Shown here one piece after another: positions 4,820-49,109 of a stretch of 64,000 bases of DNA. Under the pieces are notes generated by a model. That model worked only from the letters and a program-made list of their open reading frames with translations. It searched no databases and had not been told where the DNA came from. The first letter of the stretch is position 1; the number at the start of each line of letters is the position of its first letter. A program made the position numbers and the translations under genes. Origin of the DNA: Paramacrobiotus metropolitanus (Eukaryota; Tardigrada; Eutardigrada; Parachela; Macrobiotidae); NCBI RefSeq assembly GCF_019649055.1, contig NW_026570439.1, forward strand, positions 62,001 to 126,000, written 5' to 3'.

Positions 4820-6259
4820 GCTGGCGTGAAAGAGCTCATGGCTCGGGGCAACAGTTTTCGTTGTCAGTGGATTTTATTTTATTCATTGGTTAATGGAGTT
4901 TATTTTATTTGCTTTTATTTTGCTAGTTAAGTAATCTGATTTTCAGAAAACTAAATATTTTCATATACATATTATTTTATTTGTATTTCAAGCGATAAGC
5001 ATATACACATTTAAATATACTAGGAAAAATGCACGTTGGCGTGCATTTGGCAGACCGGAGCGCAGCATTTCCCTTGAATACAGCATGTCTTTAAGATTAT
5101 AAAATTAATTATTTGATCTGTCAGAGTACTTCGCCACATGTATATATAGAATAATAAAATTTTATATTATTTTGCAACATAAGCACTTCCAATTACTCTT
5201 TGGAAATGGCTTTCGTAACAATCTTTCGTAACAACTTTCGTAACGGACAGAAATCAACGAAGGTATTACTTCTGAATATAGAGGACCTTCGCTACGCTCG
5301 GCCGGTCGATTATGCATATAATATACGTACATAATTTTCATTTTTTTCTGTGCTATATTTTCGGTGGCAGGGTGATAGCACCGCCCATTTATATGACGTC
5401 AGCCTAGAAATCATACAAATTTTAAACTCAATTTTTATCCTGAATATTTGTGCACCTTTAGGTGGATTTTTGGTGACAGTACGTGTGGCAGCCATGCCCG
5501 TCAACCGATGTAATACGATATAAAATGATATGTTGCTCCTTATATTAACAAACTTAATGTACGATGACTAAATTATTGTATTTTGGATCTAATTTTTACA
5601 ATGCAAATATTATGCCAAGTGCAGTGATGTATTTATTTAGCTGCACAACTTCCATTTACCGTTAAACATGTGCTTATGCAATTGTTTATACTTTATATCA
5701 CCGTTAAACATGTGCTTATGCAATGGTTTATTTTTATGCAGTTGAATATCTTCACGAGTATCTGTGTCTGAATACGCCTGTTGGCTTGCTTATTGTTTTC
5801 CTAGCGTTCTGCTGAAGTTGTATACAATTGATTTCAGTATGGGTACTAATAAACGCTGGGAATGGGAATTGGGAGTTGGTATTGGGAATTTGTATTGGGA
5901 ATGGTATTGGTAATGGGAAAGACCCTAATAGATGGGAATGGTATTTCATAATGGGAGTGGGAATGGGAAAACGAAAATTTTTATAAGAAGAACGTAGATG
6001 AAGTCAAAACACTTTCTGGTATACATTATAACGCGTATCATTAATGGGTGGCCCAACAAAGCGGCGTTTGCTTTGCTGTGCTAGGTCCTGCCCAATGCTA
6101 AATCGTTATCCTGTTAGTTTCTTTTAGTATGTACAAAAAATGACCGGTACCATGTACCGGGTCACTTCCCTTAGCCTCTACTACAAAGATTTTGTTACAG
6201 TTATCATTTTTCTTGGGAAGATATTCAATTAATTTAATACAATTTTTGGAGCAACATCC
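4820..6259. other. AT-rich intergenic DNA, no gene
   Basis: No coding frame with protein character was found. It contains a direct repeat of about 32 bp (ACCGTTAAACATGTGCTTAT at about 5657 and 5699) and the G-rich microsatellite listed separately. The words AGAGGACCTTCGCT at about 5280 recur at about 34079. Confidence 0.5.
5857..5969 (+). repeat. GGGAAT-type degenerate microsatellite
   Basis: Repeated GGGAATGGGAATTGGGAGTT-like words run for about 110 bp with single-base variants (GGGAAT, GGTATT, GGGAGT). It is G-rich on the plus strand and lies in an AT-rich surrounding. There is no sign of coding. Confidence 0.8.
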
Positions 6260-6880
6260 GTAGGAGTACCGTATGACACCTATCAAGAAGCTGCAAAAGC
6301 ACTCCGACTTTTAGATGACGATGCCGAACGGAGTGCATGCTTAACCGAAGCGAGTCTGTCCAGTATGCCGAAATCGTTAAGGGACATGTTCGCGTACCTT
6401 TGTGTATTCCGCATACCCGCCGATCCTAACGGGCTTTTCGAATCGCATCAAGAGCAATTGATGGAAGACTCCCGGCAGATTTACTCGAAAGAGAAAAGCA
6501 AAAATAGGGCTCTATGGGACGTTGAGTGTGTCCCGATTCTAACCTGCGAACAGATAGGATTACCAAAACCAGCACGTCCTGTTGACAGTATTGGTGATGA
6601 ATACCAAAGGGAGAAAGAGACTGCAGACGGCGAAAGACTGAAGCGTACACTTAACCAACAGCAAAAAGAATTCGTTCGCAAAGTTCTGCATGCGGCAAAA
6701 AGTGCATCTGGCCCACAACAATGGTTTCTAGATGACCCCGGTGGAACCTGAGAAACTTTCGTGTACCAATGTTTGCTTCACATTCTGAGAGGGCAAGGGA
6801 AGACGGTGAAAATTCTTGCATGGACCGGGATTGCCGCGACACCTTGCCGCACCTGTCACTCCGCGTTCAAATTTCTCTGA
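6260..6880 (+). pseudogene. Helitron/PIF1-like helicase fragment, nonsense in Walker A
   Basis: One plus frame reads a stretch typical of Helitron helicases just upstream of and into the SF1B ATPase. In order it shows TYQEAAKALRLLDDDAERSA, then EASLSSMPKSLRDMFAYL, a variable linker, LNQQQKEFVRKVL, and WFLDDPGGT. At 6749-6751 a TGA stop stands where GGTGKT is expected, and the catalytic Lys codon reads as Glu. The frame then continues as FVYQCLL and VKILAWTGIAAT to a second stop at 6878. No Rep domain or downstream helicase motifs are present. It differs in sequence from the Helitron at 14.5-18.9 kb, so it comes from another family or an older copy. It cannot encode an active helicase. Confidence 0.8.
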
Positions 6881-7217
6881 ATCTAAATGAGTCTTCAGGG
6901 TCCAGCATGAAACCGAGTTCACCAGAAGCCAGAAGCAGTAGCGGTATTTTTGTTAACTATCGTAGTACAGTGTATCCATATCAATCGCGGCCGTGTTGTA
7001 GAGTCTTAATCGGATGTTTCATACTATACCAGATTCAGCGGATTTAGGGTCTTTAATTTTTGTCGATTGTTCGTAGTACGATGTCAGTCTAGACGTTTTC
7101 CACTGCGTACCGTTTCCAACTTAGATGTATCGCGCTTATCAGTCTTTAAAGCTTGTTAGTCCTTGCTTTTTCTCCATCTTTCGTAGTATGTCTGTTAGTA
7201 CATCTGTACATGTAGCA

Positions 7218-7397: not shown

Positions 7398-9124
7398 TTC
7401 GCTTAATGACCTCGCTGGGGTTATATATTTGAAATATTTTTCAAAATCTTTTTTATTGCTGTACGATGTCACTATGAAGTATATTTTGTATTTCTTTCGT
7501 TCTTCCTTACCTCGAACACAACTGGTCGCGCGCTAGCGCGACCGATACTTGTATTACTTATCTGTACCATAATATTCTTAAAATGTGTTTAGTAATATTA
7601 GTATTTAGTAATATTATGGTGTTACCCAGTATTTAGTAATATTATGATAATTATTACGCAGTCATGTACGGTAGTGGCCCCTTTTAAGTGCCGAGCGGGT
7701 ATACGTGAGGCTGCCTTGTACTTTACAAGCTCAACCTCGGCCTACGGCCTCGGTTGAGAATTTTTAGAATTGCAGAAAATAATTGTTTTAGCAGTTTGAA
7801 AATGAATTTAAGAACGAAAGTTTACTGGTAAGGAGATGCGGTTTGTTTTTCGTCGTCATTATGTACCCAGTGCTGAAGAATTTAACGACATCTAAAGTAA
7901 TGTGCAAAGTTAGTTAATTTTTATGTCAGATTGTCAGTGTTGCTGTTCTTATTATATTAATATGTTTTTTGGTTTTTTTACAACCACTTCGCATCGCGTA
8001 TAGCAAGAGAGCACTCAGTATAGTGATCTCATGTTACGCAATACGGAGTATGTTGTGTATCTAAATTACGTTGATATGCTATTGTAAATATAATCTAATC
8101 AATATAATTGGAAGTGTAGCAATATAATAAATATAACTGCTTCACAGAAGAAGTTATTTCCGAAATCTGTTTGCAAAGTGAAATATATGATTTAACAGCA
8201 TAATCGACAGATGAATGTGACATTACACGAACTGTAAAATTCGTGATAGAATATGATTAACTGAAATAGTTGTGGTAAGTATTAATAGTAAATTATTATT
8301 TAGAATGGTAGTTTTTTAAGGTAAGACTTGTATTAGCTGAACCGATCAAGAGGTAGCCATAAATATTACAGTGTATACAGTATGTATTGATATTAAAACA
8401 GGCCATCAGTACTTCAGTTGTGAACGAGTAAAAATGAAAAATTTAAATAAGTAACCTTTAAATAACACCGTCATAAATATTGTAGTTGACTCAATATGTA
8501 CTTATTATAGGATTCTAAAATATTTTGAAGCAGGGAAATCGGAATTAGTGTCGGTATTATCGGTTATTTATTATTATTAGTATCGGTACCCTTCAACATA
8601 TTATAAATGAAATATCATATTTAGTATAACAGTATGGCTACGCGCGCCCGTGTAAACACAGGTGTTGGCTTTATGCACAGGTGACCTTTTGAGCCCGGGT
8701 TTGAGGTGCTTACACCGAGTTTGGAAACGGGTGTTGGCTGTGGGCATGGGATTTCTGCATGTGCGTTGAGTGCAAGTACTGGTGATTTAGTTAATTTTAA
8801 ATTTATGTATTTATTAATGGTGAATGGTGGAGGATTATTAAACATTATATTATTAATAAATATTGCTAATAAATAGTTGAATTTTCTAAAAATTTGTTGT
8901 AACTGGCCGTTTGCTATGTATGACTGTGTGCCATACATACCCAACCCTTGCCACGTGGAGGCCGCCAGCCATGAAGGGTCATAAATTTTCAAAATTTTCG
9001 TATTACAAAACGAATAATAATTATTTTTTTCTGCAAAAAATTTGAATTGTAATGGTTTTATTTTATTAAAAATATAAATATAGCTTAAAAAATTGTGCAC
9101 TGTCTGATTTGCTGAAGAAAAGGA

Positions 9125-9310
9125 AATGAAATTTAAATTTAAATGAAAAAATAAGTTTATTTAATTTAAATTAATTTTTATTTTAAATTTAAAATGGTTA
9201 TTATATTATTATATTAATATATATTAATATGGTTATTGGTTATTATATTAATATTATTATGGTTATTATATTAATATTAATAATGTAATATTAATAATGT
9301 TAGCAATATG
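9125..9310. repeat. AT-only low-complexity tract
   Basis: AAATTTAAATTTAAAT words pass into irregular ATATTAATATGGTTATTAT repeats. The tract lies just beyond the 3' side of the minus-strand SGNH gene. Confidence 0.7.
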
Positions 9311-9638
9311 TTTTCTATATTATTAAATATTTTGCCTTGCCTTTTTATTTTTGTTTTCTATATTTACTTTGCGTTGAATTAATGTTTTAGAACTACATTA
9401 CTTTGTCACAACCTTTTCAGACATTCCTCTTACGAGTAGGGTCAGGTAAGTTGTGACATCAATTTTGGTTAATTTTTTTTATCACGCAGTTTCTAGGTTT
9501 ACGTTTTGGTAATTTGAATATATTGCCGTGCATTACGTCCTTCCCTTTATTCATTATGCTGCTGTATGCGCACAAAGTAATTTCTAAAAATATATAAAAT
9601 GATTCATAAACATTTTTTTTATCAAGTTTTGGTGACAT

Positions 9639-10457
9639 TTAAATTTTTTTCAAGCAGGTCTTAATTGCACTTCGAACTCGGTTGACTGCTTTCCAAGGAT
9701 TTTGGTTATAAATATTATTGAATTCATCTAACCAGTTTGTACGAGGTATCATAGGATTATAATAATCGAGATGCAAGCCATCATTCGTCATCGCTTCTTC
9801 AGGTGGAAAGTAATCAGCCATCTCGCAATATTCGACTGGCATGATGGTGGTGTTTTTAGCGATGTCCTTTAGCATTCCGTTGAATGACTCCACTAGAAAA
9901 TCTTGGAGTTCGATATACTCCTGCTTTTCTTTGATAGCTTCTGTGCGCTGTTTGTATGTTCCAACCAGTACTACCGATTTGGTGTTCTCGTAGTTGTATC
10001 GAATCCAGCCGTTATATGCAGTATACCATGACTGTATCTTGTCGCCCCAAAGTTCTCCATCCGCGTATAATTTTTGCCGATAACGGTACTGGTTAGACCA
10101 ATTCAATATACTGTTCGTTCCGGCCCATAAGACTACACAGTCACGAACTAGTCGTGTACAGTTTGGAATATTTGTTTTCCCGAAGCGATGGCTATCAACC
10201 AGTACATCACATATTGTCCCACCCGCTCTGGTACAGCATAAAACTGAACGACCCTCGATAATTTTGGATTTCGACATGTATACTCGGTTGTTGACGTAAA
10301 AATCATAAGGTTTGCTTAGGAAAACTCTTCCTAGTGAGTCAGTAAACAGTTGAACGGTTGCATCTTGTGGTCCACAACATAAAAGGTTTCCGCTCTCACT
10401 TGCGTAATCTCTACGGTGAACTTCGAAATGTTCTTTCGGATATTTGCGGTTTTCTCT
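9639..10457 (-). CDS. SGNH/GDSL-fold hydrolase-like protein
   Basis: The last exon encodes about 272 residues and opens after a pyrimidine-rich CTTTACAG acceptor at about 10458. It carries the SGNH family blocks: block I as FTDSLGRVF with the nucleophile Ser (about 10327-10345), a WAGTNSIL block supplying the oxyanion Asn (about 10105-10130), and block V as DGLHLD with the Asp-His pair (about 9760-9785). The expected activity is ester or acyl hydrolysis, substrate unknown. Upstream exons were not identified, so the true start is open; an internal Met at 10277 would lose block I and is rejected as the start. SGNH domains are known as passengers in some animal transposons (CR1-type LINEs), and this gene follows a Helitron on the same strand, so it may be element cargo. 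A host gene is the alternative. Confidence 0.7.
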   Translation of the reverse strand, partial: RENRKYPKEHFEVHRRDYASESGNLLCCGPQDATVQLFTDSLGRVFLSKPYDFYVNNRVYMSKSKIIEGRSVLCCTRAGGTICDVLVDSHRFGKTNIPNCTRLVRDCVVLWAGTNSILNWSNQYRYRQKLYADGELWGDKIQSWYTAYNGWIRYNYENTKSVVLVGTYKQRTEAIKEKQEYIELQDFLVESFNGMLKDIAKNTTIMPVEYCEMADYFPPEEAMTNDGLHLDYYNPMIPRTNWLDEFNNIYNQNPWKAVNRVRSAIKTCLKKI

Positions 10458-11945
10458 CTGTAAAGAACAGTACTAATGTGTAATTCATTGACCTTTAAAA
10501 TATTAAATTTTGATATTTTAATAAATTTATTTTAATTATAAAATATAGATAAATATTTTAAAGAAATTTAAATTATAATTTTAAATTATTCAGTTTATAA
10601 AATCGTGTTAGAAGAAAGGTGTTTAGGTGTTTGCATACGTTTAGCGGCGAATGATGCTGTTAACCATTCAAGTAAAGTACTAATTCCAGTAATTATTACC
10701 ACGTTTGTGTGGTTAGTAAGTTAGCAGTGTACCGGGTGGCTTATCGAAATGGCGGTTTGAATTACAATTTCGCACGGGGTTCTTCCAATACTGGATTGCC
10801 ATAGCCTTTGTTTCATTGGTAAGAGCAATGTTACAAAAATATTTAAAAAACGCACAGAAAAATTAAACTCGAAATACATTAGACGGAGTTTATCTTAAAT
10901 TGTTTTTAAAAGTTGGTCAGGTAGGATGTCTGGAATTACCTTACTATAAATTTGAAAGTGCTGTTGTTTAGCAAAAATCGCAAATGTACCGTACGTTGGT
11001 GTTTCGGGTTGAGGTGTGGTCTCTAGTGTTTTATAATGTAAAGTTATGCTGTTTGGCCAATACATGTAATTATGGTGATTGGGCACGGGACAATAAATAA
11101 GAAATTCGTAAGCAGGGGTTTTGATAGTAAATTTCTGGCCAGCCCTTTAGACGATTGTGTGTTTAATTTTAGAATATTTATTAAAAGGGATAACAAAGTC
11201 TGTAGAACTATGGTAAGCATTAGCACAGGAGTGCTTTCTGTATGCGGCAGTGATCTTCTACTCGACCGACAGTTATCAGTCGTTTTAGTTATTGTAAGTT
11301 CTTCGTACTTAATTCCGTAAGCAACGTAACAGCCAACTGTGTATGGTATTAACCTACAACTGTGCATTGGGGGGTCTGGGGTAGGGTTTACAACATCTGG
11401 GGTAGGGTTTACAAAATTATACACTTAACTCGAAAGTCGGTTTTACTTGCATAAAATACAATTTTTTATCGAATCAGTACCAAAAAATGAATTTCCATTG
11501 GATCCATGTTTGCTCTGCTTTGATACCTGCAACAGAAAATATTATGTAGTTGTAAATTATTCTGTGTTCAACTGTGGTATGCACGGATGAGGTGAACGTT
11601 ATAAAGTGCATTTTACATAAAATTTGCATTTTTATTGAACATAATTTTGGTATACTGTGAAAATCTAACTGCACAGACCAGCACTCTCTGTATTTGACGC
11701 CGTCACCCGCGTGGTGTGTAACGTTATGGTAAAACATACTGTTAAATCAGGCACGGTACTTAAGCTCCGTGTTTAATCACAACGTAAAACTCCAGCATGC
11801 TGACGGTAGCAGGTACAGGAAGTTCGGTCTCAGCAGTTAAATTACCTCTATATCTCATATAATTATCTCTAACTATAAAGTGCAGAGTACTACTGTACAT
11901 AATTACATATTTTATGTATTTAACATATTCTAGTTTTAGTTGTAT
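10458..11945. other. No supported gene
   Basis: AT-rich sequence with short frames only. A small direct duplication, TGGGGTAGGGTTTACAA, occurs twice at about 11368-11415. Upstream exons of the SGNH gene may be hidden here but none could be assigned. Confidence 0.4.
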
Positions 11946-12508
11946 CTTTTCGGTGCTGAGTAGGCTATTTAGATTAGTTTCCTTACGGAAAACTAATGCA
12001 GCGCTCCTTACGGATTGCTGAAAATAGCCTACGTTTTACCGAAAGTGTTATTATTGTTATTATTGTTCTGGTATTATTATTGTTGTGGTATTATTATTGT
12101 TAATTATTATTGTGCTGTCATTTACTTTTAAGTGAAATATTTTGTTATTTTGCGGTGAATAAGCAGGTTTTTTAGATTAGTTTTCCTTACGGATTGCTAA
12201 TGTAGCGATCCTTACGGACTGCTGATAGTAACCTGCTTATGCTTAAAGAAAACTCAGTGAAATATTTTGTTACTTCGCGGCGAATAAGCAGGCTGTGTAG
12301 TTTAGTTTCCTTACGGAAAGCTAATACTGTTTTCCTTACGGATTGCTTGACATAACCTGCTATAGCTCGAGGAACAAAAATGAAAACACTGAATTTTGAA
12401 AATGCAGTAATAGTATTCGATGTTTTCTTCATTGGTTGCTTCCATGGTTTAGTTATTCTTACGAATTGCTAATATAGCTTTCCTTATGGGCTGCTAAATG
12501 CAAGCAAC
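11946..12508. repeat. Four copies of a two-hairpin unit with covarying stems
   Basis: Copies lie at about 11946-12045, 12159-12240, 12287-12361 and 12435-12508. Each holds a TTAG...CTAA hairpin with a TTAC loop (TTTCC-TTAC-GGAAA in copies 1 and 3, ATTC-TTAC-GAAT in copy 4) and a second CCTTACGG hairpin. Each is enclosed by a closing stem whose sequence differs but stays paired: GTAGGCTATTT/AAATAGCCTAC, ATAAGCAGGTT/AACCTGCTTAT, AGCAGG/CCTGCT and GTTGCTT/AAGCAAC. Copies 2 and 3 also share about 35 bp of upstream sequence (GTGAAATATTTTGTTA...). The pairing was read directly. A function as RNA or as DNA binding sites is not known. Confidence 0.75.
12055..12120 (+). repeat. TTATTATTG microsatellite
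   Basis: TTATTATTGTTATTATTG-type triplet repeats separate the first and second hairpin units. Confidence 0.8.
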
Positions 12509-12788
12509 GAAGTGTTGAAAATTCGAAACTATTGTGCACCGTAGTTGATTCAGTTTTGTGTGTCTATGGTATGACATGATATATGTGCAGCGTTCTAACA
12601 TTTTAAATTCAAGTGGAAATTTTTTTCTATGTACTAATTTATTAAACAATATTTTAAACCAGGCTTGCATAAATGAGTTTAAGAGAGTAGTACATGGTGG
12701 TTGGTATTAGATACTCGTATTGTTATAATTTCGGATAAACAGGCATCTGCATCTTTTTACGGAATATTGTACAGCCACTGAAGTATTA

Positions 12789-14333
12789 TTAATGCGTTTT
12801 AGGTAATTTGGAATCCACAGACTGGTGAGAATCTTTTGATTTGCGCTTGTTCAGAGAGACCGTATCGCTTTCGATGTCGTTCATAGTTTCGTCGAGGAAG
12901 CTCATTGAATTCGGTTCAAGCAGTTCTTCTTTCAAAAAATTTTCGAAGATTGCTTTTGCCATGCTATTGCGTGTCAGCCAGTATACAGTCTTTTGTGGTA
13001 TCATTTTGACAATTCCGTCAGCATGATGCAGGTTTCCGAAGAAGATGAATTTAGATTCGTATTCGTTTGGTTGGATTTGATGCGACTAAAATGATAATAC
13101 TAAAGTGAACTGTACGTATCAAACAAATGGCTTTGCTAGAATTGTTATTACAAATTCCTTGGGAATAACAACGGTGAGTTGATCGTCAGAAGAATTGTCT
13201 CTCAGCTTCAGTGTTCGTTGTGATCCATCGAACTTCTCTACTGCTTCGATATATCCCAGAATGTCTGACGAACGGCATCGTAATTATTTGACAATAAATT
13301 AAATAATAATTGACGTGTAAAATCGTACTTATGTCACACTCTTTTTTCAACTTCATGATCTGCTTAATTTTGACACACTCTGGCAGAATCGGTTCCCAGT
13401 TGTCTAAGACGTCGATCAGTACGGACTGTGTCACCCAAAAATTGGTTCGCAGAGTAGCCGTGTAGCGATAATCTTTTTCCGTTGGCTCATTGGTAGTGCC
13501 ATTGCGGATTTCTAGTGCCTTAAAAAGCATTCGCTATGCTATCAGTCTGTATTGTGTTTAACAGGATGAGATTACCATTCCTGGTCGAAATGTCTCGACA
13601 AATTTATGTTGCGCGATTTGTTTGTCGAAAAAGGCCATATTGATACTTCCAGTTGCATCGGCCAAAACTAGACGCGCGATTTTTTTGTCGGGTTCGTTAT
13701 TTGTTGGTTGAACATTGCCAACACTCTGGACCATTGCGCGGAACAGTCTAAATAGGAAGTTTTCTGTTTAATTGTATATTTTTACAAAATAATTTATTAA
13801 TCATTTACGGAATTATTTTTCTGGCTTCGGGAAGTTCTGATAATGATGGCACGGGGGAAGGAATTTCAACGGGTGCCGTTTTGGAAGTAGTTGGCGTCGG
13901 CGCCAAAATTTTCTCGATCTTTTCCTTTTCACCATCCCTCACAGTTTCAAATTTTGCGATATTCCATTTTTGTCTGAGAATCGAAAGACTCGCTTAAAAT
14001 ACTGTATTGCATAAGCGCCTTACTGTTTTGCAAAACATTTTTGGTACAATTTTCGTCCATACTTTAACCGTTTGAATCCATTTGAAGTGATCTTGATAAT
14101 ACTTCCAGCAGCTGGTATTGGTTTTCCCGTTCCTGGCGTGTACTGAGCGGATTGCTCGTTAACGCCGTCCCAAAGAACTAGAGATTTTGGTTCCCGGAAT
14201 TCCTGTTTGAGACATGCCATTGTATAGTATATGCAAATTTGTAATGCACGTTGTAAACTCACAGTAACTTGCACAACAATTGCGTCTTTTGGCGTTACAG
14301 CAGAGCCGAATACTCCATAGGTGAGGTCCATTC
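12789..14333 (-). CDS. RPA-like single-strand DNA-binding protein of the Helitron
   Basis: Short exons separated by small introns encode OB-fold segments typical of replication protein A large-subunit relatives. Exon 14333-14263 joins 14202 onward and gives LVLWDGVNEQ and GSIIKITSNGFKRLKYGRK. An exon near 13740-13570 gives RLVLADATGSINMAFFDKQ and FVETFRPGM. A 42-nt intron leads to KALEIRNGTTNEPTEKDYRY. A further exon gives DILGYIEAVEKFDGSQRT and LTVVIPKEF, and the last exon (about 13089-12789) ends at TAA. RPA binds single-stranded DNA, and Helitron RPA homologues are thought to protect the displaced strand during rolling-circle transposition. One junction near 14000 does not keep phase, so a frameshift or missed intron is likely. 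The first exon is not established. It sits directly downstream of RepHel on the same strand. Confidence 0.65.
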
Positions 14334-14527
14334 CTGTATGTACTAACGTGGTTAATGTATTTAATAAATACGAATATCACACGAATTATAAGTTATTTAT
14401 TGGATTTTTTTAACACTACGGCGCTATTTGGTAACAGTATGCTCTTCATAAAATTACATATATCCTAAGAATATTCGGGATATTATTCACAACTAAGTTC
14501 TACGCAATTGAATTGCGTACTTTCTTT

Positions 14528-17500
14528 CTATATTAATAATTCTTTATAAACCACATTTCTAGTGCGTAGTGGAAACAGCGAATGCACTTGCACTTCGGAC
14601 AACAATATCAAAATATCATCACGTTGTCTGACACGACTCAAACCAACATAGAGCTGCCCGTGTGCAAAGGCAACATCTCGTAGATCTAGTACACATTTTG
14701 AGAGCGTAGCTCCTTGCGCTTTGTTAAAAGTCCGAGCATAGCAAGCTCTAACTGGAAACTGACGTCGCTTCATCTCAAAGTTTTTTTTCTGTATTTTCAA
14801 CGTAAACTGTATTCTTGGAATGTAGACTGTTTTGCCGGTTGATACCACTTTCGCTGTTATAACGTTTCTTGTGAAACTAAGGATAATAACTTTGGCATTA
14901 TTCAGAAGCCCGTCTTCCGGGGAAAGATTGCGAAGGAGATAACATTCCTTATGCCTTCTTTGACTTTCAGCTCGTGGGGTGGAACGTTGTTTTCGTTTAG
15001 TGAGTGCAAAAAATCTTCATTAAACTCTTCATCAAAATACCCTGCAAAAAGTTTACATTTGCCTAAGTTAAACACAAAACGTTTTTTAACCAACCAGAGG
15101 ATCCCTCGGAATTAAGCTCGTCAAAGCTGTATAGCGTTCCCGGTTTACCGGCCAGGTCTTTGTAAATGTCAGCGTTCAGTTCATCAACTTGGTAATTTCG
15201 CAAAGACAATATCGCTGAGTCAAGAATTTCCCGGTTTTGTTCCTTCAAGTTTGGGTAAACGAAGGCTTTTGCTTCTTCAACTGAAGTCGTGTAATTAAGG
15301 TAATCAGGAAGAATAACGTAGTTTTCTTTATCTTCTTCCAATGTTCCGTCGCCTACTTTCTCAAGCAATCTAAGAACGTATTTTTTTAACAAATGTTCGT
15401 ACAACAAATGTCAGTGCGCAATATACTTTGCATATTCCGGGTCCGCTTGCTGTCGAACTGATATTTTAAGCGAGAACGTTTTGAAAAGTTTCCACAATTT
15501 GGAGCTCTTAATGCTAGCTTCAACGATCTGAGTTCTTGATCCATACTGGATAACAGGAGGGATTTGTCGGAAATCACCAATTCCGATAAAAAGAATTCCT
15601 CCACACACTTCAGCAGAGCGTCTAACTTTTTGAAGCATTTCATCGACTGCATGAAAATTTTTTTTATGACTCATAACGAACTCATCCCAAAAAATGACCG
15701 AAGCAGCACGCAATAAATCTGCTCTCTGTGATTTTATAGGCACGTTGTACTCCAGTTTTTGCTCTGTTCCGTGGTTTTCAACCGGAATTTGAAACATCGA
15801 GTGAGCCGTTCGGCCGCCTCCGTAATTTGATGCTGCAACAGCTGTGCTGGCACAACACAAAGCAATTTTGCCCTGTGTACGTACTAAGTTTGCTATGCAG
15901 TTGACCAAGAAAGTTTTTCCCGTTCCTAAAACATTTCAGTAGCTTTATTTTCTGACTTTCGTAGTTGATAGCACAGTACTTACCAGCGGCGCCGTTAATG
16001 TATAGAAGACCGCCGCTGTTTGTCTCCAGCATTTTAACTACATAATCATAAACCTCGCGTTGATCGTTATTCAACATCGATAACAAATGCTCGTGTTCGA
16101 GTTCATTCTTTGCTGGATTATATCTTGCTATTTCTCGTTCAACCATGTTTTTCTCACTGTAAGGTTCCGCTAGGCCAAAATCGTGCATGTTTTTACCGGC
16201 GGAATCAAATTTTGCAAACAGATCAGACAATAACTTTTTTTCAGATTCCCATTCCGAAAATTTCTGATTCAATCGGTAGTCTTCTGCCATATGACTTTTG
16301 AAGGTTTCATATAACGATGGTCCGGGAGCGCCTTCTGTCACCAGGAGAAAAAACAGTGTACGAAGCTGCGCTGGGCTGCAAAATTGTGCAATCGCTTCTT
16401 CCATGCACAATTTGCTTTCAGTTGAATCATTGAAAAGGCCCAGTTTAGTTGCAGCATCCGCAAACGATTCGCATACTTCACCATTCACTGTTCTAAGCTG
16501 TTCATAAGATCTTGATGGTACGTGCTTTAGCAATAGGCGCAAGTACCATACATCGCCAGCTTGTGGGCGAATTAAAGCCAGTCGCGGCACATGGACGGTC
16601 TTGCGACAGTAAATAAAGTAGGTTTTTCCGTCTGACATTTGACACTCATTAACGTTCTCAACAGACTTTGGCTTCTTTGTATTGACAACATATTCTGAAT
16701 AAAAATCCATATATGTTAAAGCATCAAAGATTTCATTTTCAGGTCTTTGAAAATATTTATCTAAGGCTGACAGCTGGTTGATCTTTTCCACTTTTTTGTT
16801 GGGACTGTACACCACGTAGTTCCTGTTTGGAAGATGAACAGGATACTGTTCAACGGAAGGTAGCCGTTTTGTAGTATCGTATTCGTTAATACGCCAGGCT
16901 GCTTCAGCTGCCGAAATGTATCTCGCATTCAAGTATTCTGTAATTTCGTCACCCTTGGATAGCCGGACATTTGCATAATCTGGACCTTTATAAAAATACT
17001 TATAAAGGTAGGTAATTATTCTGACTGAATGGGAAATTTCGACGTTTATGTGGCAATCGTACTTCACCAGCAAATGTGAATTATAGGGCACCACATAACA
17101 ATCGTCTTCGGTTCTGCGCTGGTAATGCGGGAAACCTGCTTCGTCAATAAAGGTGACATTATTAATTGGTTTTGGGTAAAACGCAACACAGGTTTTGCAT
17201 TTGACCACTCCATTGGCGTCGGGGACATTAAGATGACCTTTTTGACGGTAACAGCGTTCTTCGACATGACGATGAACCATATGCCGTTTTACAGTTTCAC
17301 AAAGTTCAGGGTCATCTTTTGGAAATTCAGCCGAAATAACTTTGTTGATTTCGTCAGCTGTGCGAGGTTCTCTTGCCATTTTAATGGCAATATGCGCATG
17401 GGGAAGACCGCGTTTCTGAAATTCAATTACGTGTATCCGATAAACAACTTTACCACCCCCGAGAGCACGTGGAAGGTCGGCAAAGATTTCTTGCAGCTTT

Positions 17501-18858
17501 GCCTTAAAAACCCTTGCAACGATGTCTGGTCTATCTGAGGCATCTTGGAAAGGCTTCAGTTGGGATGTTATTTCAGGCCATTTTGGGTTACACGTTACGG
17601 TTATAAAGTAAGTTGGTTTTCCGTATTTTGCGACGATGGCTAAAGCATCTGCAGTATTGTCTTGCATGTTTCGCTTAGAATGGAGGTGGCTAGATGGAAG
17701 AAATGTACGCCCAACATCGTCGCCGTCAGCCACAGATTCACGCAATTCCTGCTTTTGACAAATCTTTTGTGATGCCCGATGAAATTCTAAGCGTGGTTCT
17801 TCGATTACGCTAAAACCATCTACTAAATATTCGTTCATCAATGGTCCAAAGAAATGAAGTGGCTCATGTCGCATTATCATCTGCCGGCAGTATTGTAATA
17901 AAGTAAGCTTTGTCGTCATCTTTAAAGCTAGATCCCACCCCAGCGTACCGCACGGATAAAGTAATACATACTGTAATTTGAAATACATTGCATTAGACGT
18001 TTGGATAAACGTCGGCTGATTTTCGGTTTTTTTCCAACACACAACTGCTCTTTGTTGGAAATCACCACTTGTGTCATCGCAGATGAGTGCTGCTACTTCT
18101 CGAGTAGCAGAAACCGTTAGCTCCATTCGAATTTCTTGAGACGGATTTTCTGACATGCACCTAAATCTTTTCCAAAAGTAATTATGTTCCTCAAAAATGG
18201 ACCGAAGACTTTCTATGATATTTGGGTCAAGTTTTTGATCAGCTCCCATAGATTTTGGTACTGTAGCGTCGCTTACGAACCACCGCAATGGTCCAGTTGC
18301 ATCCGATCCTGATCGAAGGCATTATTAATGCGTTTGGTATTTTTTCGTTAAAAAAACCTGGTTTTATATTACCGTTTAGCATTCGGTGATAAGTCCGTCC
18401 ATGAAGAATCAAATTTGACGGTCCCCCCGTTTGTTTAATAAATTCACCTGTTGTGCCAATGTCAGAGAAGGCAAACAAATTGTTGTATGCTCGGCTTCTC
18501 TCGCACAGCTGAGGTGTTGTTTGATATAAATGACGAAAGGCCTCTGGTATCGTTGGCAAATCAATAACCGTTCCTGGGGATTTTTTACTTCTTCCGCAAC
18601 ACATTGACGCCGAATCAGTGTTAAAAAGCATTGCGCCACAACGGTCGCACAACTTTGTTGTGATCTAGCAAATTTTTAACTTTATTTAGAAATCTCGGTA
18701 GATTTAACGCATTCCACTGATTGTGTTACTTTTTTTAATGGACCCAAGACACGCTTTACAGAGCTCTCCGTTTTGGTTTTTTCCAAAGCATATTTTGTTT
18801 TGCGGGTGGCCTTGTTTTTTTCACTTTGGTCGATTGGTTTTCTTTTCCTTTTTGGCAT
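14528..18858 (-). CDS. Helitron RepHel (HUH replicase plus PIF1-like helicase)
   Basis: The start at 18858 (MPKRKRKP) gives a basic, NLS-like N-terminus. A likely 44-nt intron leads to a CxxC...CC zinc-binding region (CDRCGAM, MCCGRSKK). The Rep domain shows YFITVTCNPKWPEI, the HUH motif GLPHAHI (about 17390-17410) and the Tyr motif YLYKYFYKGPDY (about 16970-17010). The helicase has a Walker A rebuilt across a 58-nt intron (15926-15983) as GAAGTGKT, then VIFWDEF, GDFRQIPP, LPPDY-type spacing, and LYVGLSRVRQRDD at the C-terminus. A second intron of 57 nt (15370-15426) removes an apparent TGA and restores EYAKLLEKVGDG. A third of 53 nt (15042-15094) joins SSG to YFDEEF. Two frame breaks remain, near 18310 and near 14950 (between KVKEG and YLLRNLSPEDG). 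The protein nicks DNA by rolling circle and unwinds it. Apart from the two breaks it looks recently active. Confidence 0.9.
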
Positions 18859-19009
18859 GATAGCGAAAATTTCTATCTATTTGTGGCAAAAGAACACCAA
18901 TTTATTGTGCGTGGTTGATTGTTAAAGGTGTTTGTATATATTTCATATCTTGACGCTTTAAGTATAATTTTGATAAAAAATATGTTAAGTAACTGTTAAG
19001 AATGCTACT

Positions 19010-20006
19010 GCTATAACGCCGTACCACTTGATAAACGCCGTACGATGGGTTAAACGCCTCCTGTGGTGGCTGCCCATTACACAGAGCCTCCGTACAGATT
19101 TAACATTGTGCAATGCAGAGTTGCGCTGCAGTCTGCAATGGTTTCTGTGCTAGTAACACTGCAGTTCTATACTCTTTTGTGTTCAAATTTAAATTATTGA
19201 AATTGATTTTAATTACATAAAATAAATTTTAACTAAGTACGATGGAGCAGTAGTTTGTGTGTCGCCATGGACTATCGATGTACAGTACTGTAACTTAGTC
19301 TGTAAGCAGTAAGTGAAGCCTGTAGACTCTACGGTATATCCATGGCGAACTTGCGAGCAGATTGTGCTGAAACTTACTGTCTTTATATTCGGAACCCGGA
19401 ATGCCAAATCATCCAGCAACAGAACAGCAGATCATCCAGGAACAGTAGGTCAGTAAAGACACAACAGTATAGGCTACAGCGCAAAAAGAGCACTCTTACT
19501 ATGCTACTCGGGAAATATTTTGCCCCACTCCAGAAGTTCCCTCTCTTATAGCTTGGTGTACTGTTCCTGAATGAGCTTCTGTTCTGTTGCTGGATGATTT
19601 GGCATTCCGGGTTCCGAATATAAAAACAGTAAGTGTAAGCACAATCTGCTCGCAAGTTCGCCAGGGATAGACCGTAGAGGCTACAGGCTTCACTTACTGC
19701 TACAGTACGAGTACTGTAAATACATCCATAGCCCATAGCGACACACAGGCGCTGTACAGTTTAACAAACGAAACAAAGAAGGATTATCCTCTAACACACA
19801 ACTCTCCATCGTATTTTGTAAAAACTTATATTAATGTAATTGAAATCAATTTCAGTAATTTAAATTGAACACAAAAGAGTAAAGAACTGCAGTGATACTA
19901 ACAAAGAAATCAGTGCAGACTGCAGCGCATACGGAGGCTTTGTGTAATGGGCAGCCACCACGGGATGCGTTTAACCCAACCTACGGCGTTTATTAACTGT
20001 TATGGC
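19010..20006. mobile_element. Long-TIR fold-back element, about 1 kb
   Basis: Arms of about 420 bp (19010-19427 and 19579-20006) are diverged reverse complements covering almost the whole element. Matching landmarks include AACGCCGTA, GGTGGCTGCCCATTACACA, CTGCAGTCTGCA, and CCAAATCATCCAGCAACAGA. The central spacer is about 150 bp and has no coding capacity. It is non-autonomous, and no clear target duplication was found. It lies just upstream of the Helitron genes. Confidence 0.8.
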
Positions 20007-22129
20007 TAATTTAAGAAATTAATTGTCACTTCGAAAAGCTTCTGCCATATGTACGGCACCGTGCATTTTTCCTTGTATTAAGGGCCTTGCACTAATATAA
20101 TAAATCACTATGAAATACAATGTGTAGCACTGCAGTTTACGTAATGTATCATTAATACAGTACTTGATAATGTATACATTAATACAGTACCTGATAAATA
20201 TTTAAATATTCGTTCCTGTCAATATTTTAATATTTGATATGGTGGACCTTAAATAAGTTTCGCACGATGCGTACGAGACAGCGGAATCGACTGCTTCTTA
20301 AGGGATTCGACTGCTTCTTAAGGGATTCTTAAGGGAATTCGTTTACATCCAAAGAAACTTTCGCTCTCGCGCACTCCCAAACACTTTTTTACATTGCTTT
20401 GTTGTATTTACAGCCAAGAATTGTATACGTAAGTGTAAAATCCGTTTGCGCGCGCAACAGGATAACAAAATTCAGTTATCAGGATAACAAAATTCCAAAA
20501 AGTTTAAATGCATCGAGGTGTACGATAAGTCTCAGTATGGACAGAATCTTTTCACATTTTGCAGGTAAATGCGCATAATTATGAAGATCGTTCTTACAAC
20601 GATGCACTGTTCTAGTATGATTATAAAATTTTAGAATAAAACATCCGGTTAGGTAAGTTTCGCCCAGAACTTCTTAAACGGATGTTTGCGCGCACAAACG
20701 ATTTTTACATCAACGTATACAAATCAATTCGCTACAGAATGCATCAAAATGAATGTAAGAAGTGTTTGGAATTGCGCGGAAGGAAATTTTCGTGTATGTA
20801 TCCAGATCTGGCTACATGTACCGGCCTACTTCCCTCAATTAATTTTGAAATGTATCTTTCTTTTTACAGTTTAATAGGCAATAATAACTAAGAAATAGTA
20901 ACCATTGCCTGAAATGAGACAGTACATGCACTTGCATCTAAGTATGACATTGCGGCAGTACATATGGCTAAATTAAGCGCAGTGCATAAAAACCCTGAAT
21001 CTGTATTGCTTCCTAAGTGTTTCCAGGAACCCTAAACTTAAATCGAACCCATGCCGGTAAGCGGTAACCCTAAATATCTGACGTGGCATTTATAAATCGA
21101 ACCCAACATGGCATGTACTACGTGTAGTTCCTACTCGAAATTAGAGCACCTGTTCGAATACAGAACACCGGCAAAAATTTAAGTATCTAAAGTTATTTTT
21201 TAATTTTACTGTTAACAGTAAAAAATAATGATGGTCATGCAAAATTTAAATTTCAGTAAAAATAACGATCTTTATATGGTGGATTAAGTGATTAAACAAA
21301 AACCTTAACGTAATTGCGGTTACAGTATACGAGTATTTCGAAAAAAGGCAAACGGCCACTTACGTGCGTTAAGGTCACTTACACGAAGTTTTGGTTGAAG
21401 TGTTCGTATGAACCTTTAAAGGAACAGGCTCGAGAAAGCGGAGAATCAATGGAGGCTCTCGTAGCTGAACGTTGACACTTGCTGGATCGGTAACTGTCCC
21501 TTTTTGGGCGAAGCTGACAAAAGCGAGAACAGAGAACACAGAAGACCGCTGGACTACCGTTCGAAAAGACACGAATACAGGGAATGGCAGGGATTCAAAA
21601 ATCAATGCCAATGTACCATTAACCGCACTGTTTAAAAATAATAATAAAATTTCATCTGTCGCGTTCGAATTTTGCATCGGCGTAAAATAAACCTACCGAA
21701 TTGACAAACATGTGGCACTGAATACTAAATATGTGTCTTACTTTATATACTATGTGTGTATGTATGTGCATATGTATGTAAATAAATAAATAATTTTTTG
21801 TATTGCATATACAGCATAATAATGCAAGACTTATGTCGTGCATTGGAACTTATATTAGTCAGCGAATTTGTTAAATATATGTGATCTATTTCCGCCAATT
21901 GGTATTTTGCGTCTTAAAATCCGCCTATCAGCAAAATTAGTTTGGAATGCGTTTCGTAAATCGTAGGATAAAAATAATGAAAAACGAAAGTCGTTGCCGG
22001 AAACTACATGATTTTAGGATTTTTTTGAGCTATCGTGTAAAAATCAGTGTCGAACGGTGTAGGAGGAGATGTTGGCCGAAGAAACGGCTCAGTTAGCTTT
22101 GTATATATAATAACTTTACTGTATACGTA
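20007..22129. other. Intergenic, mostly AT-rich
   Basis: Contains tandem duplications (GACTGCTTCTTAAGGGATTC twice at about 20290-20330; CAGGATAACAAAATTC twice at about 20458-20500) and the degenerate palindromic element listed at 20440-20700. A minus frame at 21375-21677 (100 codons, with one hydrophobic stretch) has no recognised domain and is not called. Confidence 0.45.
20440..20700. mobile_element. Degenerate copy of the GCGCGCAACA palindromic element
   Basis: TCCGTTTGCGCGC at 20441 and GCGCGCACAAACGA near 20688 face each other. The interior shares AGTTTAAATGCAT, GGTGTACGATAAGTCTC and GAAGATCGTTCTTAC with the better-preserved copy at 49311-49723. The match continues on the right side to about 20840 (GTGTATGTATCCAGATCTGG against GTGGATGTACACAAATTTGG), so the full repeat is longer than the palindrome. 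Confidence 0.65.
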
Positions 22130-22277
22130 CTGTACTGACACGATATTGAGGTTCAGCAAAATCCCATGGACCGCCCGCGCTAATCGTCGGTTCCTTTGAC
22201 ATCAACGAAACCGACGCCTAGTGCGGGCGGTCCAGGGGACTTTACTGACCCTTACGATTAATATCGTGTCAGTACAG
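22130..22277. mobile_element. 148-bp palindromic MITE (copy 1)
   Basis: Terminal inverted repeats CTGTACTGACACGATATT (22130-22147) and its complement (22260-22277) enclose an inner palindrome of GGACCGCCCGC and GCGGGCGGTCC around GTCGGTT...AACCGAC. A related copy in inverted order lies at 52371-52515. It is non-coding and non-autonomous. Confidence 0.85.
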
Positions 22278-44029: not shown

Positions 44030-45292
44030 GAGCCTTACCGCGACGCCGCAAAAGCCGCGACACGGCTTATAAGCCGCGACACGCCGCAACAAGCCGCGAC
44101 CAGTGCCAGCGCACGTGCTAGCACTGGGCTGCCGCGACGCCGCAACAGCCGCGACACGGCTTATAAGCCGCGACACGCCGCAACAAGCCGCGACCAGTGC
44201 CAGCGTATGTGCTAGCACTGGGCTGCCGCGACGCCGCAACAGCCGCGACACGGCTTATAAGCCGCGACACGCCGCAACAAGCCGCGACCAGTGCCAGCGT
44301 ATGTACTGGGCTGCCGCGACGCCGCAACAGCCGCGACACGGCTTATAACCCGCGACACGCCGCAACAAGCCGCGACCAGTGCCAGCGTATGTGCTAGCAC
44401 TGGGCCGCGACGCCGCAACAGCCGCGACACGGCTTATAAGCCGCGACACGCCGCAACAAGCCGCGACCAGTGCCAGCGTATGTGCTAGCACTGGGCTGCC
44501 GCGACGCCGCAACAGCCGCGACACGGCTTATAACCCGCGACACGCCGCAATAAGCCGCGACCAGTGCCAGCGTATACAGGCTGCTGCCGCAACAGCCGCG
44601 ACACGGCTTATAAGCCGCGACACGCCGCAACAAGCCGCGACCAGTGCCAGCGTATGTGCTAGCACTGGCTGCGACGCCGCAACAGCCGCGACACGGCTTA
44701 TAAGCCGCGACACGCCGCAACAAGCCGCGACCAGTGCCAGCGTATGTGCTAGCACTGGGCTGCCGCGACGCCGCAACAGCCGCGACACGGCTTATAAGCC
44801 GCGACACGCCGCAACAAGCCGCGACCAGTGCCAGCGCACGTGCTAGCACTGGGCTGCCCCGACGCCGCAACAGCCGCGACACGGCTTATAAGCCGCGACA
44901 CGCCGCAACAAGCCGCGACCCGTGCCAGCGTATGTGCTAGCACTGGGCTGCCGCGACGCCGCAACAGCCGCGACACGGCTTATAAGCCGCGACACGCCGC
45001 AACAAGCCGCGACCCGTGCCAGCGCATGTGCTAGCACTGGGCTGCCGCGACGCCGCAACAGCCGCGACACGGCTTATAAGCCGCGACACGCCGCAACAAG
45101 CCGCGACCAGTGCCAGCGTATGTGCTAGCACTGGGCTGCCGCGACGCCTCAACAGCCGCGACACGGCTTATAAGCCGCGACACGCCGCAACAAGCCGCGA
45201 CGCGTGCCAGCGCATGTGCTAGCACTGGGCTGCCGCGACGCCGCAACAGCCGCGACACTTCTTATAAGCCGCGACACGCCGCAACGGGCGGC
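44030..45292 (+). repeat. 94-bp CpG-rich satellite, array 1 (about 13 units)
   Basis: Head-to-tail units of 94 bp contain CGGCTTATAAGCCG (a perfect 14-bp dyad), CCGCAACAAGCCGCGAC and GTGCTAGCACTGGGCT. Most units differ by one to three bases (GCGTATGTGC or GCGCATGTGC), and some have short deletions. The same unit in opposite orientation forms array 2 at 58776-64000. The many 60-90-codon frames are artefacts of a non-multiple-of-three unit. Confidence 0.95.
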
Positions 45293-46725: not shown

Positions 46726-49109
46726 CAAAGGACGCTCCAAAAGTAAGTTTCCCTATTGTTTATCTCCCAGCACAAAGGCCTTTAGCTCTTATTATCCATA
46801 CAGATATAAATGCCCTTCACTAAGGAACCGAAGAAAGACACAACTCAGTTTAAGTACAATTAAAATGGAAAAGAATTGCCAAAAAACCATCGACCACTTT
46901 TCGCACTGTGCCACGGATTTTACCAGGACCGTTTTTGCAATTTTTCTCAAAACATCCTCTGAACTTTTTGTAACGCACTAAGCGTCCACAAGTTGAGTAT
47001 ACTTCTCTCTTTTAATCTCAATTATTAAACAAAAGAACTTACTCATACTGTTTTTATGGGAAAACAGAAACTATCGATGACTAGGAGCAAAACCCACAAA
47101 GCTGCCCTACTTCCAGACGATGAAATAATCTAAATTTCATAAAAAATTTTATTGTGCTCGCTATAACTTAAAGTCCATTGGTATCTTAGATGCGCATAAC
47201 TGCGCATAAAATGTTCTATTCATTGATGCAAAGAATCATGAATTCATGGGCGCGAGAAAGCTGAATAGGACAAAATTTGGTGTCGCGAGTAAAAAACTTT
47301 TTACTCAAACTCCTGAGCTTTTCAAGATAATCTGCGACTAGAGAAATAATAAGCATTCACTTTGTTATAAAACTTTTAATTCACCGCCGAGAGCTTGACT
47401 GGGCGGAAGTTATGCAAGAATGAATTGGGTTTTAAAAAGCCCGTGGACAAATTGAAAAGCGGTACGAGCCATTTTATTTCTCGTTTCTCACGTTTTCATC
47501 AAACCATTTGATTCTTATTTTCCTGGTTAGTTTACATAAATGCTTATTTAAAAAAAATATCAGTTTATATTATTTCAGATGGCAGGGAGGCCAAATAGCA
47601 CAAGCGCAAAGCCGGATAGCATTTAACGTAAAAAAGCTGGATATTTAGTGCGTGATACCCTTAGCGAAGCCATGGTTTCAACCAGTAACGAGTCAGAGAA
47701 AATTATTTTTTGCTGGTACCTGTATAGAGAAGGTGTCTCTTTTACCGTATCTCAACCTGTCACAAGCGCAAAGCCGGATAGCATTTATCGTAAAAAAGCT
47801 GGATATTTAGTGCGTGATACCCTTAGCGAAGCCATGGTTTCAACCAGTAACGAGTCAGAAAAAATTATTTTTTGCTGGTACCTGTATAGAGAAGGTGTCA
47901 CTTTTACGGTATCAAAACCTGTCACAAGCACAAAGCCGGAACTATTTAATGTAAAAACGCGGGGTATTTAGTGCGTGATACCCTAAGCGAAGCCATTGTT
48001 TCAACCAGTAACGACTCAGAGAAAATTATTTTTTGGTGGTACCTGTATAGAGGTGTCACTTTTACGGTACCTCAACCTGTCACAATCACAAAGCCGGATA
48101 CAATTTTACGTAACAAGGTGAGACACTTAGTGCGTGATAACCTTAGCGAAGCCATAGCTTCGACCAGTAACGAGTCAGAGAAAATTATTTTTTGCTGGTA
48201 CCTGTATAGAGAAGGTGTCTCTTTTACCGTATCTCAACCTGTCACAAGCATAAAGCCGGATAGAATTTAACGTAAAAAAGCGGGATATTTAGCGCGTGAT
48301 CACCTTAGCGAAGCCATAGCTTCGACCAGTAACGAGTCAGAGAAAATTATTTTTTGCTGGTACCTGTATAGAGAAGGTGTCTCTTTTACGGTATCTCAAC
48401 CTGTCACAAGCACAAAGCCGGATAGCATTTAGCGTAAAAAGGCGGGATATTTAGTGCGTGATCCCCTTAGCAAAGACATAGCTTCGACCAGTAACGAGTC
48501 AGAGAAAATTATTTTTTGCTGGTACCGGTATAGAGGAGGTGTCAGTTTTACGGTACCTCAACCTGTCACCAGCACAAGGCCGGATACAATTTTACGTAAA
48601 AAGGCGGGACATTTAGTGCGTGATACCCTTAGCGAAGCCATGGTTTCAACCAGTAACGACTCAGAGAAAATTATTTTTTGGTGGTACCTGTATAGAGGAG
48701 GTGTCACTTTTACGGTACCTCAACCTGTCACAAGCACAAAGCCGGATACAATTTTAAGTAACAAGGTGGGATATTTAGTGCGTGATAACCTTAGCGAAGC
48801 CATAGCTTCGACCAGTAACGAGTCTGAGGAAATTATTTTTTTCTGGTACCTGTATAGAGATGGTGTCTCTTTTACGGTATCTCAGCCTGTCACCAGCACA
48901 AAGCCGGATACAATTTTACGTAAAAAGGCGAGACATTTAGTGCGTGATCCCCTTAGCAAAGCCATAGCTTCGACCAGTAACGAGTCAGAGAAAATTATTT
49001 TTTGCTGGTACCTGTATAGAGGAGGTGTCACTTCTACGGTAGCTCAACCTGTCACCAGCACAAGGCCGGATACAATTTTACGCGAAACTTACTTCTGGAG
49101 CGTCCTTTG
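46726..49109. mobile_element. Mariner-like TIR element filled with 162-bp repeats
   Basis: CAAAGGACGCTCCAAAAGTA at 46726 and the complement ending at 49109 match over 26 bp with one difference, and each is flanked by TA. TIRs of this style with a TA duplication are typical of Tc1/mariner. No transposase with a DDE/D catalytic domain was seen. The left 0.8 kb is AT-rich. From about 47580 the element is a tandem repeat of a 162-bp unit whose last copy runs straight into the right TIR. Confidence 0.75.

Follow-up and report, generated by a model that had tools for sequence, protein, structure and literature searches.

Tandem two-armed hairpin units in a tardigrade Helitron suggest a folded site used by the transposon

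Bacterial and viral HUH proteins read the shape of DNA (the Rep protein of AAV is itself an HUH protein), and to our knowledge little is established about how the Rep of a Helitron recognises DNA beyond the terminal sequences and one 3' hairpin. An array of four repeat units at 11946-12508 in a stretch of the Paramacrobiotus metropolitanus genome (GCF_019649055.1, contig NW_026570439.1, positions 62,001-126,000 of the forward strand; 64 kb in all, hereafter the window) raises the question of what folded sequences might do in the interior of such an element, and in which nucleic acid they would fold. The units constitute a conserved folded cis element of a Helitron lineage, and the array suggests a folded site used by the transposon, probably in single-stranded DNA or else in RNA. 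Because it occurs in two diverged subfamilies, the array is a well-defined substrate on which to test if the HUH transposases of eukaryotes, too, recognise DNA by its shape.

The units and the element that carries them

The minus strand is the coding strand of the surrounding Helitron genes and the preferred direction in which to read the units, which are spaced by 204, 124 and 148 nt (Table 1). On that strand a closing stem of ~11 bp encloses two arms, each consisting of a stem of ~4 bp, an internal loop of 2-3 nt per side and a tip that is usually TCC-GTAA-GGA, with CC-GTAA-GG in most arms; the adjacent internal loops are rich in purines. Across the 26 arms of the 13 units scored in the window and its relatives, the loop reads GTAA in 21, GTGA in two, GCAA in one and ATAA in one, and is seven bases long in the last. 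The original prediction of four tandem copies, each with a closing stem and two hairpins, was borne out at this very place, with folds that beat those of shuffled sequences. The hairpins to which it gave TTAC loops are likewise there, but the minus strand, on which these loops become GTAA, is the better direction of reading.

Measured against dinucleotide shuffles, the RNA folds of units 4, 3, 2 and 1 have z-scores of -2.8, -4.3, -7.2 and -6.4 on the minus strand and of -2.6, -4.7, -7.0 and -6.8 on the plus strand, and such fold energies do not discriminate between the strands. The corresponding DNA folds of the minus strand have z-scores of -3.0, -2.8, -5.9 and -7.1, and for unit 2 the DNA fold of lowest energy preserves the closing stem but rearranges the two arms. 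Unit 4 is the most altered of the four; by eye, its outer stem extends to ~12408-12533.

The surrounding element is of the Helitron rolling-circle type by its Rep and PIF1-like helicase domains, which lie on neighbouring exon-like pieces, and by a hairpin near its 3' terminus, an end placed from a break in homology. The array shares its element with Rep and helicase ORFs and thus stands inside a coding element. It had been described as lying between RPA-like and SGNH genes of a Helitron; the place is correct, but the SGNH label was not confirmed, Pfam giving nothing for that 277-aa ORF at E 0.1, and the RPA-like gene shows a single weak OB-fold match. Among the eight ORFs scanned, which covered part of the exon-like pieces, one further flanking ORF has only a weak match to a Pif1 2B domain (E 0.09) and none matches an endonuclease family.

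The ends of the element were placed with the help of a second genomic copy, at locus C104, whose homology with the window comes in pieces and runs from window position ~7713-7723 to 22110. Since this homology stops beside a hairpin and since the C104 sequence has a head-to-tail abutment (Table 1), the hairpin end and position 22110 are taken as the 3' and 5' ends. The hairpin itself, at 7730-7758 on the minus strand, lies 5 nt from the end given by the homology break and has a DNA fold z-score of -3.7; its loop is GTA in the window and GGA in the abutting element on C104 and on C119. The Helitron2/Helentron subgroup is defined by asymmetric terminal inverted repeats and by a hairpin at either end; as to the present element, AGCTTGT at the putative 3' end resembles the complement of ACAAAGCT at the putative 5' end, both ends being placed from homology breaks only.

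Table 1. Features of the array and its Helitron in the window (positions are those of the 64-kb window)
Feature	Position	Strand	Remarks
Unit 4	12435..12508	-	Closing stem GTTGCTTGCAT/ATGGAAGCAAC; tips CCC-ATAA-GGA and TTC-GTAA-GAA
Unit 3	12284..12364	-	Closing stem AGCAGGTTATG/CACAGCCTGCT; two TCC-GTAA-GGA arms; arm-1 outer stem mostly unpaired
Unit 2	12157..12241	-	Closing stem ATAAGCAGGTT/AACCTGCTTAT; two TCC-GTAA-GGA arms
Unit 1	11960..12033	-	Closing stem GTAGGCTATTT/AAATAGCCTAC; two TCC-GTAA-GGA arms; outer inverted repeat 11948-12044
TTA/TTATTG simple repeat	12045..12111	.	Separates units 1 and 2; C104 has a shorter version
Rep part of Rep-helicase gene	15778..18321	-	Helitron_like_N, E 7.8e-42
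PIF1-like helicase part, exon-like pieces	14528..15935	-	PIF1, E 3.1e-45 on 15411-15935
RPA-like gene, exon-like pieces	12789..14376	-	One of four scanned pieces matches PF01336 OB-fold, E 2.4e-4, below the curated cut-off
277-aa ORF (earlier called SGNH)	9639..10472	-	Third codon positions change most
Candidate HDV-like ribozyme	8902..8982	-	Downstream of the units, same strand as the Helitron genes
Putative 3' terminal hairpin	7725..7758	-	CTCAACC-GA-GGCC-GTA-GGCC-GA-GGTTGAG then CTTGT; end from the stop of C104 homology
Putative 5' end region	22080..22110	-	On C104 the position matching window 22110 is joined head to tail by a 3'-end-like sequence

Recurrence, covariation and constraint

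The architecture recurs in other Helitrons of the same genome. The C104 copy has the same four units; its main blocks are 93-95% identical to the window (once joined, 92.8% across 7.7 kb and 93.4% across 1.4 kb), its shorter blocks 72-91%. Locus C119, reached by a genome pattern search for two tips, is a diverged Helitron whose helicase is 68-69% identical to that of the window in DNA; its four units, which have different stems and like tips, stand 180 to 750 nt past the end of the helicase alignment, and its BLASTN matches to the window are the helicase, the segment of the candidate ribozyme discussed below and the 5'-end-like sequence. Locus C13 has a single unit with GTGA and GCAA loops behind a helicase end that is 75% identical in protein to that of the window, and the 6 kb downstream of this helicase match window 8001-20000 by BLASTN at the ribozyme segment only.

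Across the genome, the exact tip-pair pattern occurs at 13 places, seven of them in the known loci C104 (two), C119 (two) and C219 (three). A GNRA version of the pattern occurs at 110 places as against 67 in a reversed control, and among the matches listed it is credible, judged by letters alone, only in C104, C119, C13 and C219. The original prediction had proposed a covariance-model search, and a model of the arms trained on 12 units, with the C13 unit outside the training, was run on the window and 35 loci. In the loci it recovers 13 units (the 12 training rows and C13), the next match having an E of 0.31; in the 64-kb window it finds the four units at E 1.2e-15 to 3.9e-14, all of them training rows, followed by 9054-9117 on the minus strand (18.8 bits, E 0.015). 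This last match, just upstream of the ribozyme candidate, could be a decayed unit or remnant or a chance resemblance, and a decayed remnant is also seen at C423 and C495 (15.1 bits, E 0.012); both are outside the count of 13. A tip-and-stem descriptor, run on 31 sources, picked out one tip pair in the window and one in L018 only. It disallows G-T and overlooked most of the true units, C104's among them, so its silence elsewhere is weak evidence that units are absent.

An Rfam search of window 11300-12800 at E up to 5 gave no match, and a further search gave five matches, none of them on the units; the units thus match no known Rfam RNA family by covariance model. A hammerhead ribozyme, considered by eye because of the three-way junction, was dropped, the conserved core of that motif being absent.

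That the stem bases differ between copies and change in pairs, as had been predicted, is seen on a MAFFT alignment of 12 units (C13 left aside) that was not fitted to the structure. Of its 239 base-pair cells 85.4% pair, compared with 75.0 (sd 1.4) in shuffles and 29-59% when the partners are slid, and 11 of 20 pairs change on both sides, a number reached by 2 of 500 shuffles. Cells with changes on both sides number 27 against 10.3 in shuffles, while further pair types show no excess (16 against 15.3). Another MAFFT count of the 12 units gives five pairs changed on both sides, which 28 of 500 shuffles reach. A second alignment, of 13 units, was built by hand to fit the structure, so its results lean towards it: the junction letters were omitted and, for Xb, the seven-base loop was entered as GTAA and the internal loop and closing stem were shortened. 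On this alignment 18 of 25 pairs have at least two Watson-Crick types.

The significance test of covariation that the original prediction called for was carried out in a tree-aware version, with a null written for this analysis after the idea of R-scape. On the hand alignment of 13 units, six of the 25 structure pairs but only three of 2186 others exceed the score for a per-structure E below 0.05, and a single pair of the 25 keeps that E when corrected for all column pairs; because the alignment is fitted by hand, the result counts as support and not as proof. The arm-2 stem, for instance, reads TTAG/CTAA, TCTG/CAGA or TTTG/CAAA across subfamilies. An inversion of arms during duplication, named beforehand as one of the findings that would refute the original prediction, did not occur, there being no coding-strand TTAC loop in any of the 26 scored arms.

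The close pair formed by the window and C104 allows recent constraint to be gauged. Units have changed at 19 of 304 sites and spacers at 123 of 1105 (p 0.013). Tip stems alone are unchanged at all 48 sites, and tip and arm-2 stems together at all 80 (p 1.9e-4 against spacers, in a grouping made after the counts had been seen). Closing stems have changed at 5/88 sites and internal loops at 5/38, and the arm-1 stems, at 5/32, have changed no less than the spacers. It is thus the tips and arm 2 alone that are visibly held over this short divergence. None of the ten changed pairs in the closing and arm-1 stems is compensatory between these closest copies, which implies that the covariation is old. 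In the coding sequence, third codon positions change more than first and second ones in nine of nine pieces compared; the Rep codons differ at 62/790 third positions against 15/791 first and 8/791 second ones, and the excess is weakest in the final RPA-like piece, where 7 third positions of 99 differ against 5 first and 3 second ones. Both copies have therefore been under selection after their split.

What the array may be

Several known systems resemble the array in part. Hairpin DNA in an element with a Rep-helicase is shared with the terminal hairpins of Helitrons, Helitron2 elements and Helentrons (PMC5148889, PMC4067079), but in the available text Helitron-type hairpins are single and terminal or subterminal, whereas here four two-armed units stand in tandem and internally. 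The 5' hairpins of Fusarium Helitron2-like elements have CC-GAA-GG tips (PMC5148889, in the text available), which are much like the CC-GNA-GG tip of the putative 3' hairpin of this element. Central tandem repeats and microsatellites, according to the available portions of two reports, are found in DINE-1/HINE and oyster Helentrons (PMC4067079, PMC8268682) and form, as here, an internal tandem array beside a simple repeat; no conserved covarying two-hairpin fold is described in those portions, and DINE-1/HINE are non-autonomous and without coding capacity, whereas the element around this array has ORFs for Rep and helicase. The inverted terminal repeat of AAV, as far as the accessible text goes, has a closing stem, two short arms and a conserved arm tip, a T-shaped hairpin whose tip is contacted by Rep (PMC5511163). 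For the units, binding of Rep at the tips is proposed; the AAV hairpin sits at the genome ends and has a Rep-binding repeat in its stem, while the units are internal, and no homology is claimed. No named element of this form was known to the original prediction, and none emerged from Rfam or from literature searches (Helitron and Helentron hairpins, stem-loops, tandem repeats, covariation, SGNH, RPA), the papers listed giving no description of such an array. Unless function proves otherwise, the covarying two-armed tandem unit is a new form of features already known, namely internal tandem repeats in Helentron-type elements and hairpins at Helitron ends.

Our tentative preference, held with somewhat less than even confidence, is that the units are Y-shaped sites in single-stranded DNA whose tips are read by the element's Rep protein; the DNA form, Rep as the reader and the effect of binding are what we infer here. 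During rolling-circle transposition the coding strand, as the transferred strand, would be peeled off, and each unit would fold in that single strand into a Y of a closing stem with two short arms. The feature recognised would be the TCC-GTAA-GGA tips together with the adjacent purine-rich internal loops, and the reader would be the HUH Rep encoded by the element or else an accessory protein that binds single strands. Four units might then provide multivalent docking or pausing at a place upstream of the 3' terminator. Consistent with this, the stems covary, the units change less than the spacers, third codon positions change most in the coding pieces, the Y unit recurs in C104, C119 and C13 despite the divergence of C119 and its different stems, and the putative 3' hairpin shares the plan of a stem, a GA/GA internal loop and a GGCC-GNA-GGCC tip. 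GNNA loops are also stable in DNA. A folded coding-strand RNA would be expected to tolerate G-U and not A-C, and among the 320 base-pair cells of the hand alignment (284 Watson-Crick, 17 other) there are 6 G-T and 13 A-C, so that no coding-strand wobble excess appears and the difference is not significant (p 0.17). In the Helraiser work, as far as its available text describes it, the Helitron transposase uses one donor strand, the top strand, and the 3' hairpin is a terminator that is not strictly required (PMC5876387). The missing RNA-like wobble, the likeness to the 3' hairpin and the parallels in Fusarium, Helraiser and AAV together favour DNA over RNA. Counting against it are the internal position of the units, ~4 kb from the putative 3' end, the changed arm-1 stems and the missing compensatory changes between the close copies, and the single pair that survives full correction with pair types not above those of shuffles. 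The loops GTAA, GTGA and GCAA, moreover, have the GNRA form classical for RNA, and no such array was seen near the other Helitron helicases examined (28 of 61 helicase matches, most with ~1.5 kb downstream).

It is possible, if somewhat unlikely, that the units instead fold in a coding-strand transcript, each as a three-way junction whose two arms are capped by GNRA loops. Situated downstream of the Rep or RPA-like coding region, they would influence the stability, export or translation of the RNA or its binding by proteins, in concert with the ribozyme candidate further downstream. The loops are GNRA on the coding strand in 24 of the 26 arms, the units of both subfamilies follow the Rep- or RPA-like coding pieces and precede the 3' end, and each of the four loci with scored units has, on this strand too, the sequence of the ribozyme candidate, of which the window copy was tested against Rfam; a candidate ribozyme on this strand suggests that RNA made from it matters, which speaks against the DNA sites. 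Set against a transcript fold are the scarcity of coding-strand G-U noted above, the lack of an Rfam match and the positions of AATAAA, which by eye follows the RPA-like ORF and precedes the units in the window, and in C119 shares bases with the stop codon of Rep, so that the units may be outside the mRNA. GNRA-capped three-way-junction RNAs, a recognised kind of structure, share the two capped arms on a closing stem, but the units have no covariance-model match and are mostly Watson-Crick with few G-U. Were the transcript fold true, a DNA transposon would carry a structured RNA beside a candidate self-cleaving ribozyme.

The array could also be an inert, palindrome-rich and satellite-like block, tandemly duplicated, in which template switching at quasi-palindromes and not selection kept the stems paired. 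Internal tandem repeats and microsatellites of the kind reported in Helentron-type elements (PMC4067079, PMC8268682, in the text available), and ten changed pairs without a compensation, would fit such a history. Yet the units change less than their spacers, the tip and arm-2 stems (grouped after the fact) have not changed at all, and the internal loops stay unpaired in most arms, where palindrome correction would tend to erase them; the architecture also persists in C13, whose DNA after Rep otherwise matches that part of the window at the ribozyme segment only. We consider inert repeats improbable. Very improbable is a reading in which TCCGTAAGGA is a near-palindromic duplex site, for example for Rep or a transcription factor, with the stems secondary: this 10-mer is itself an inverted repeat and the tip stems are fully conserved between the close copies, but the stems outside it covary across subfamilies, and recognition of a duplex needs no such pairing.

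Returning to the Y-shaped DNA sites, it is rather unlikely that all parts of a fuller picture hold at once, namely a Helitron lineage in which a docking array of such sites, read at the tips by an HUH protein, is combined with a downstream HDV-like self-cleaving ribozyme. A DNA transposon of a eukaryote would then combine a structural docking array in its interior with its own RNA processing.

The candidate ribozyme and neighbouring repeats

HDV-like ribozymes fold as a nested double pseudoknot of P1-P4, in which a G.U marks the cleavage site and a catalytic C precedes P2'. When 151 bases (8850-9000) were searched against Rfam, the three top matches were all HDV-like ribozymes and all below their gathering thresholds: RF00094 at 32.2 bits against a gathering threshold of 50 bits (E 0.0021 for the 151 bases), RF01787 at 18.0 bits and RF02682 at 15.7 bits. 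The candidate is not reported in Rfam searches of 19 kb of the window, or of 15 kb with the C71, C423 and C119 copies. By eye, its first pairing has a G.U at the site and its J4/2 strand reads GCAAAC, both of which are features of this class. A core pattern with up to three mismatches occurs at seven places in the genome (the window, C71, C104, C119, C13, C423 and C495, and so including the four loci with scored units) and nowhere in a reversed control; the C119, C423 and C13 copies have mismatches in P3, and C104 lacks half of P4. Literature matches for HDV-like ribozymes with Helitrons or DNA transposons concern R2, judged by title.

At C71 the ribozyme segment occurs without units in the 2.6 kb examined, and the segment can thus spread or persist without them, a point against the preferred DNA sites. 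There it is joined to sequence matching window 24.7-24.9 kb, which disagrees with the putative 5' end: since this match lies beyond that end, either the end has been misplaced or two repeats met by chance at C71. The locus is accordingly either an internal-deletion derivative of a longer element or such a chance junction.

Other repeats were noticed in passing. About 1 kb of the window (19017-20006) is absent from C104, and its ends look by eye like mutual inverted copies; it is perhaps an inverted-repeat or foldback insertion in the upstream part of the Helitron. A strong palindrome, also seen by eye, lies at 22124-22260 beside the putative 5' end and beyond the C104 homology. A sequence of 200-260 bp resembling the junction of Helitron 3' and 5' ends occurs at L018 4300-4560 and in clusters on C13, C119, C16, C5, C122 and others; it makes up most of the 53 matches obtained when 40 of 112 candidates were scored, and its occurrences are often ~2 kb apart, as would be expected of short elements arranged head to tail. 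On the plus strand, ~6240-6900 seems by eye to be a remnant of another Helitron-type helicase in the opposite orientation. Finally, self-comparison of the window reveals long tandem arrays at 58783-64000 (period ~94 bp), 47599-49082 (~162 bp) and 44038-45285 (~94 bp).
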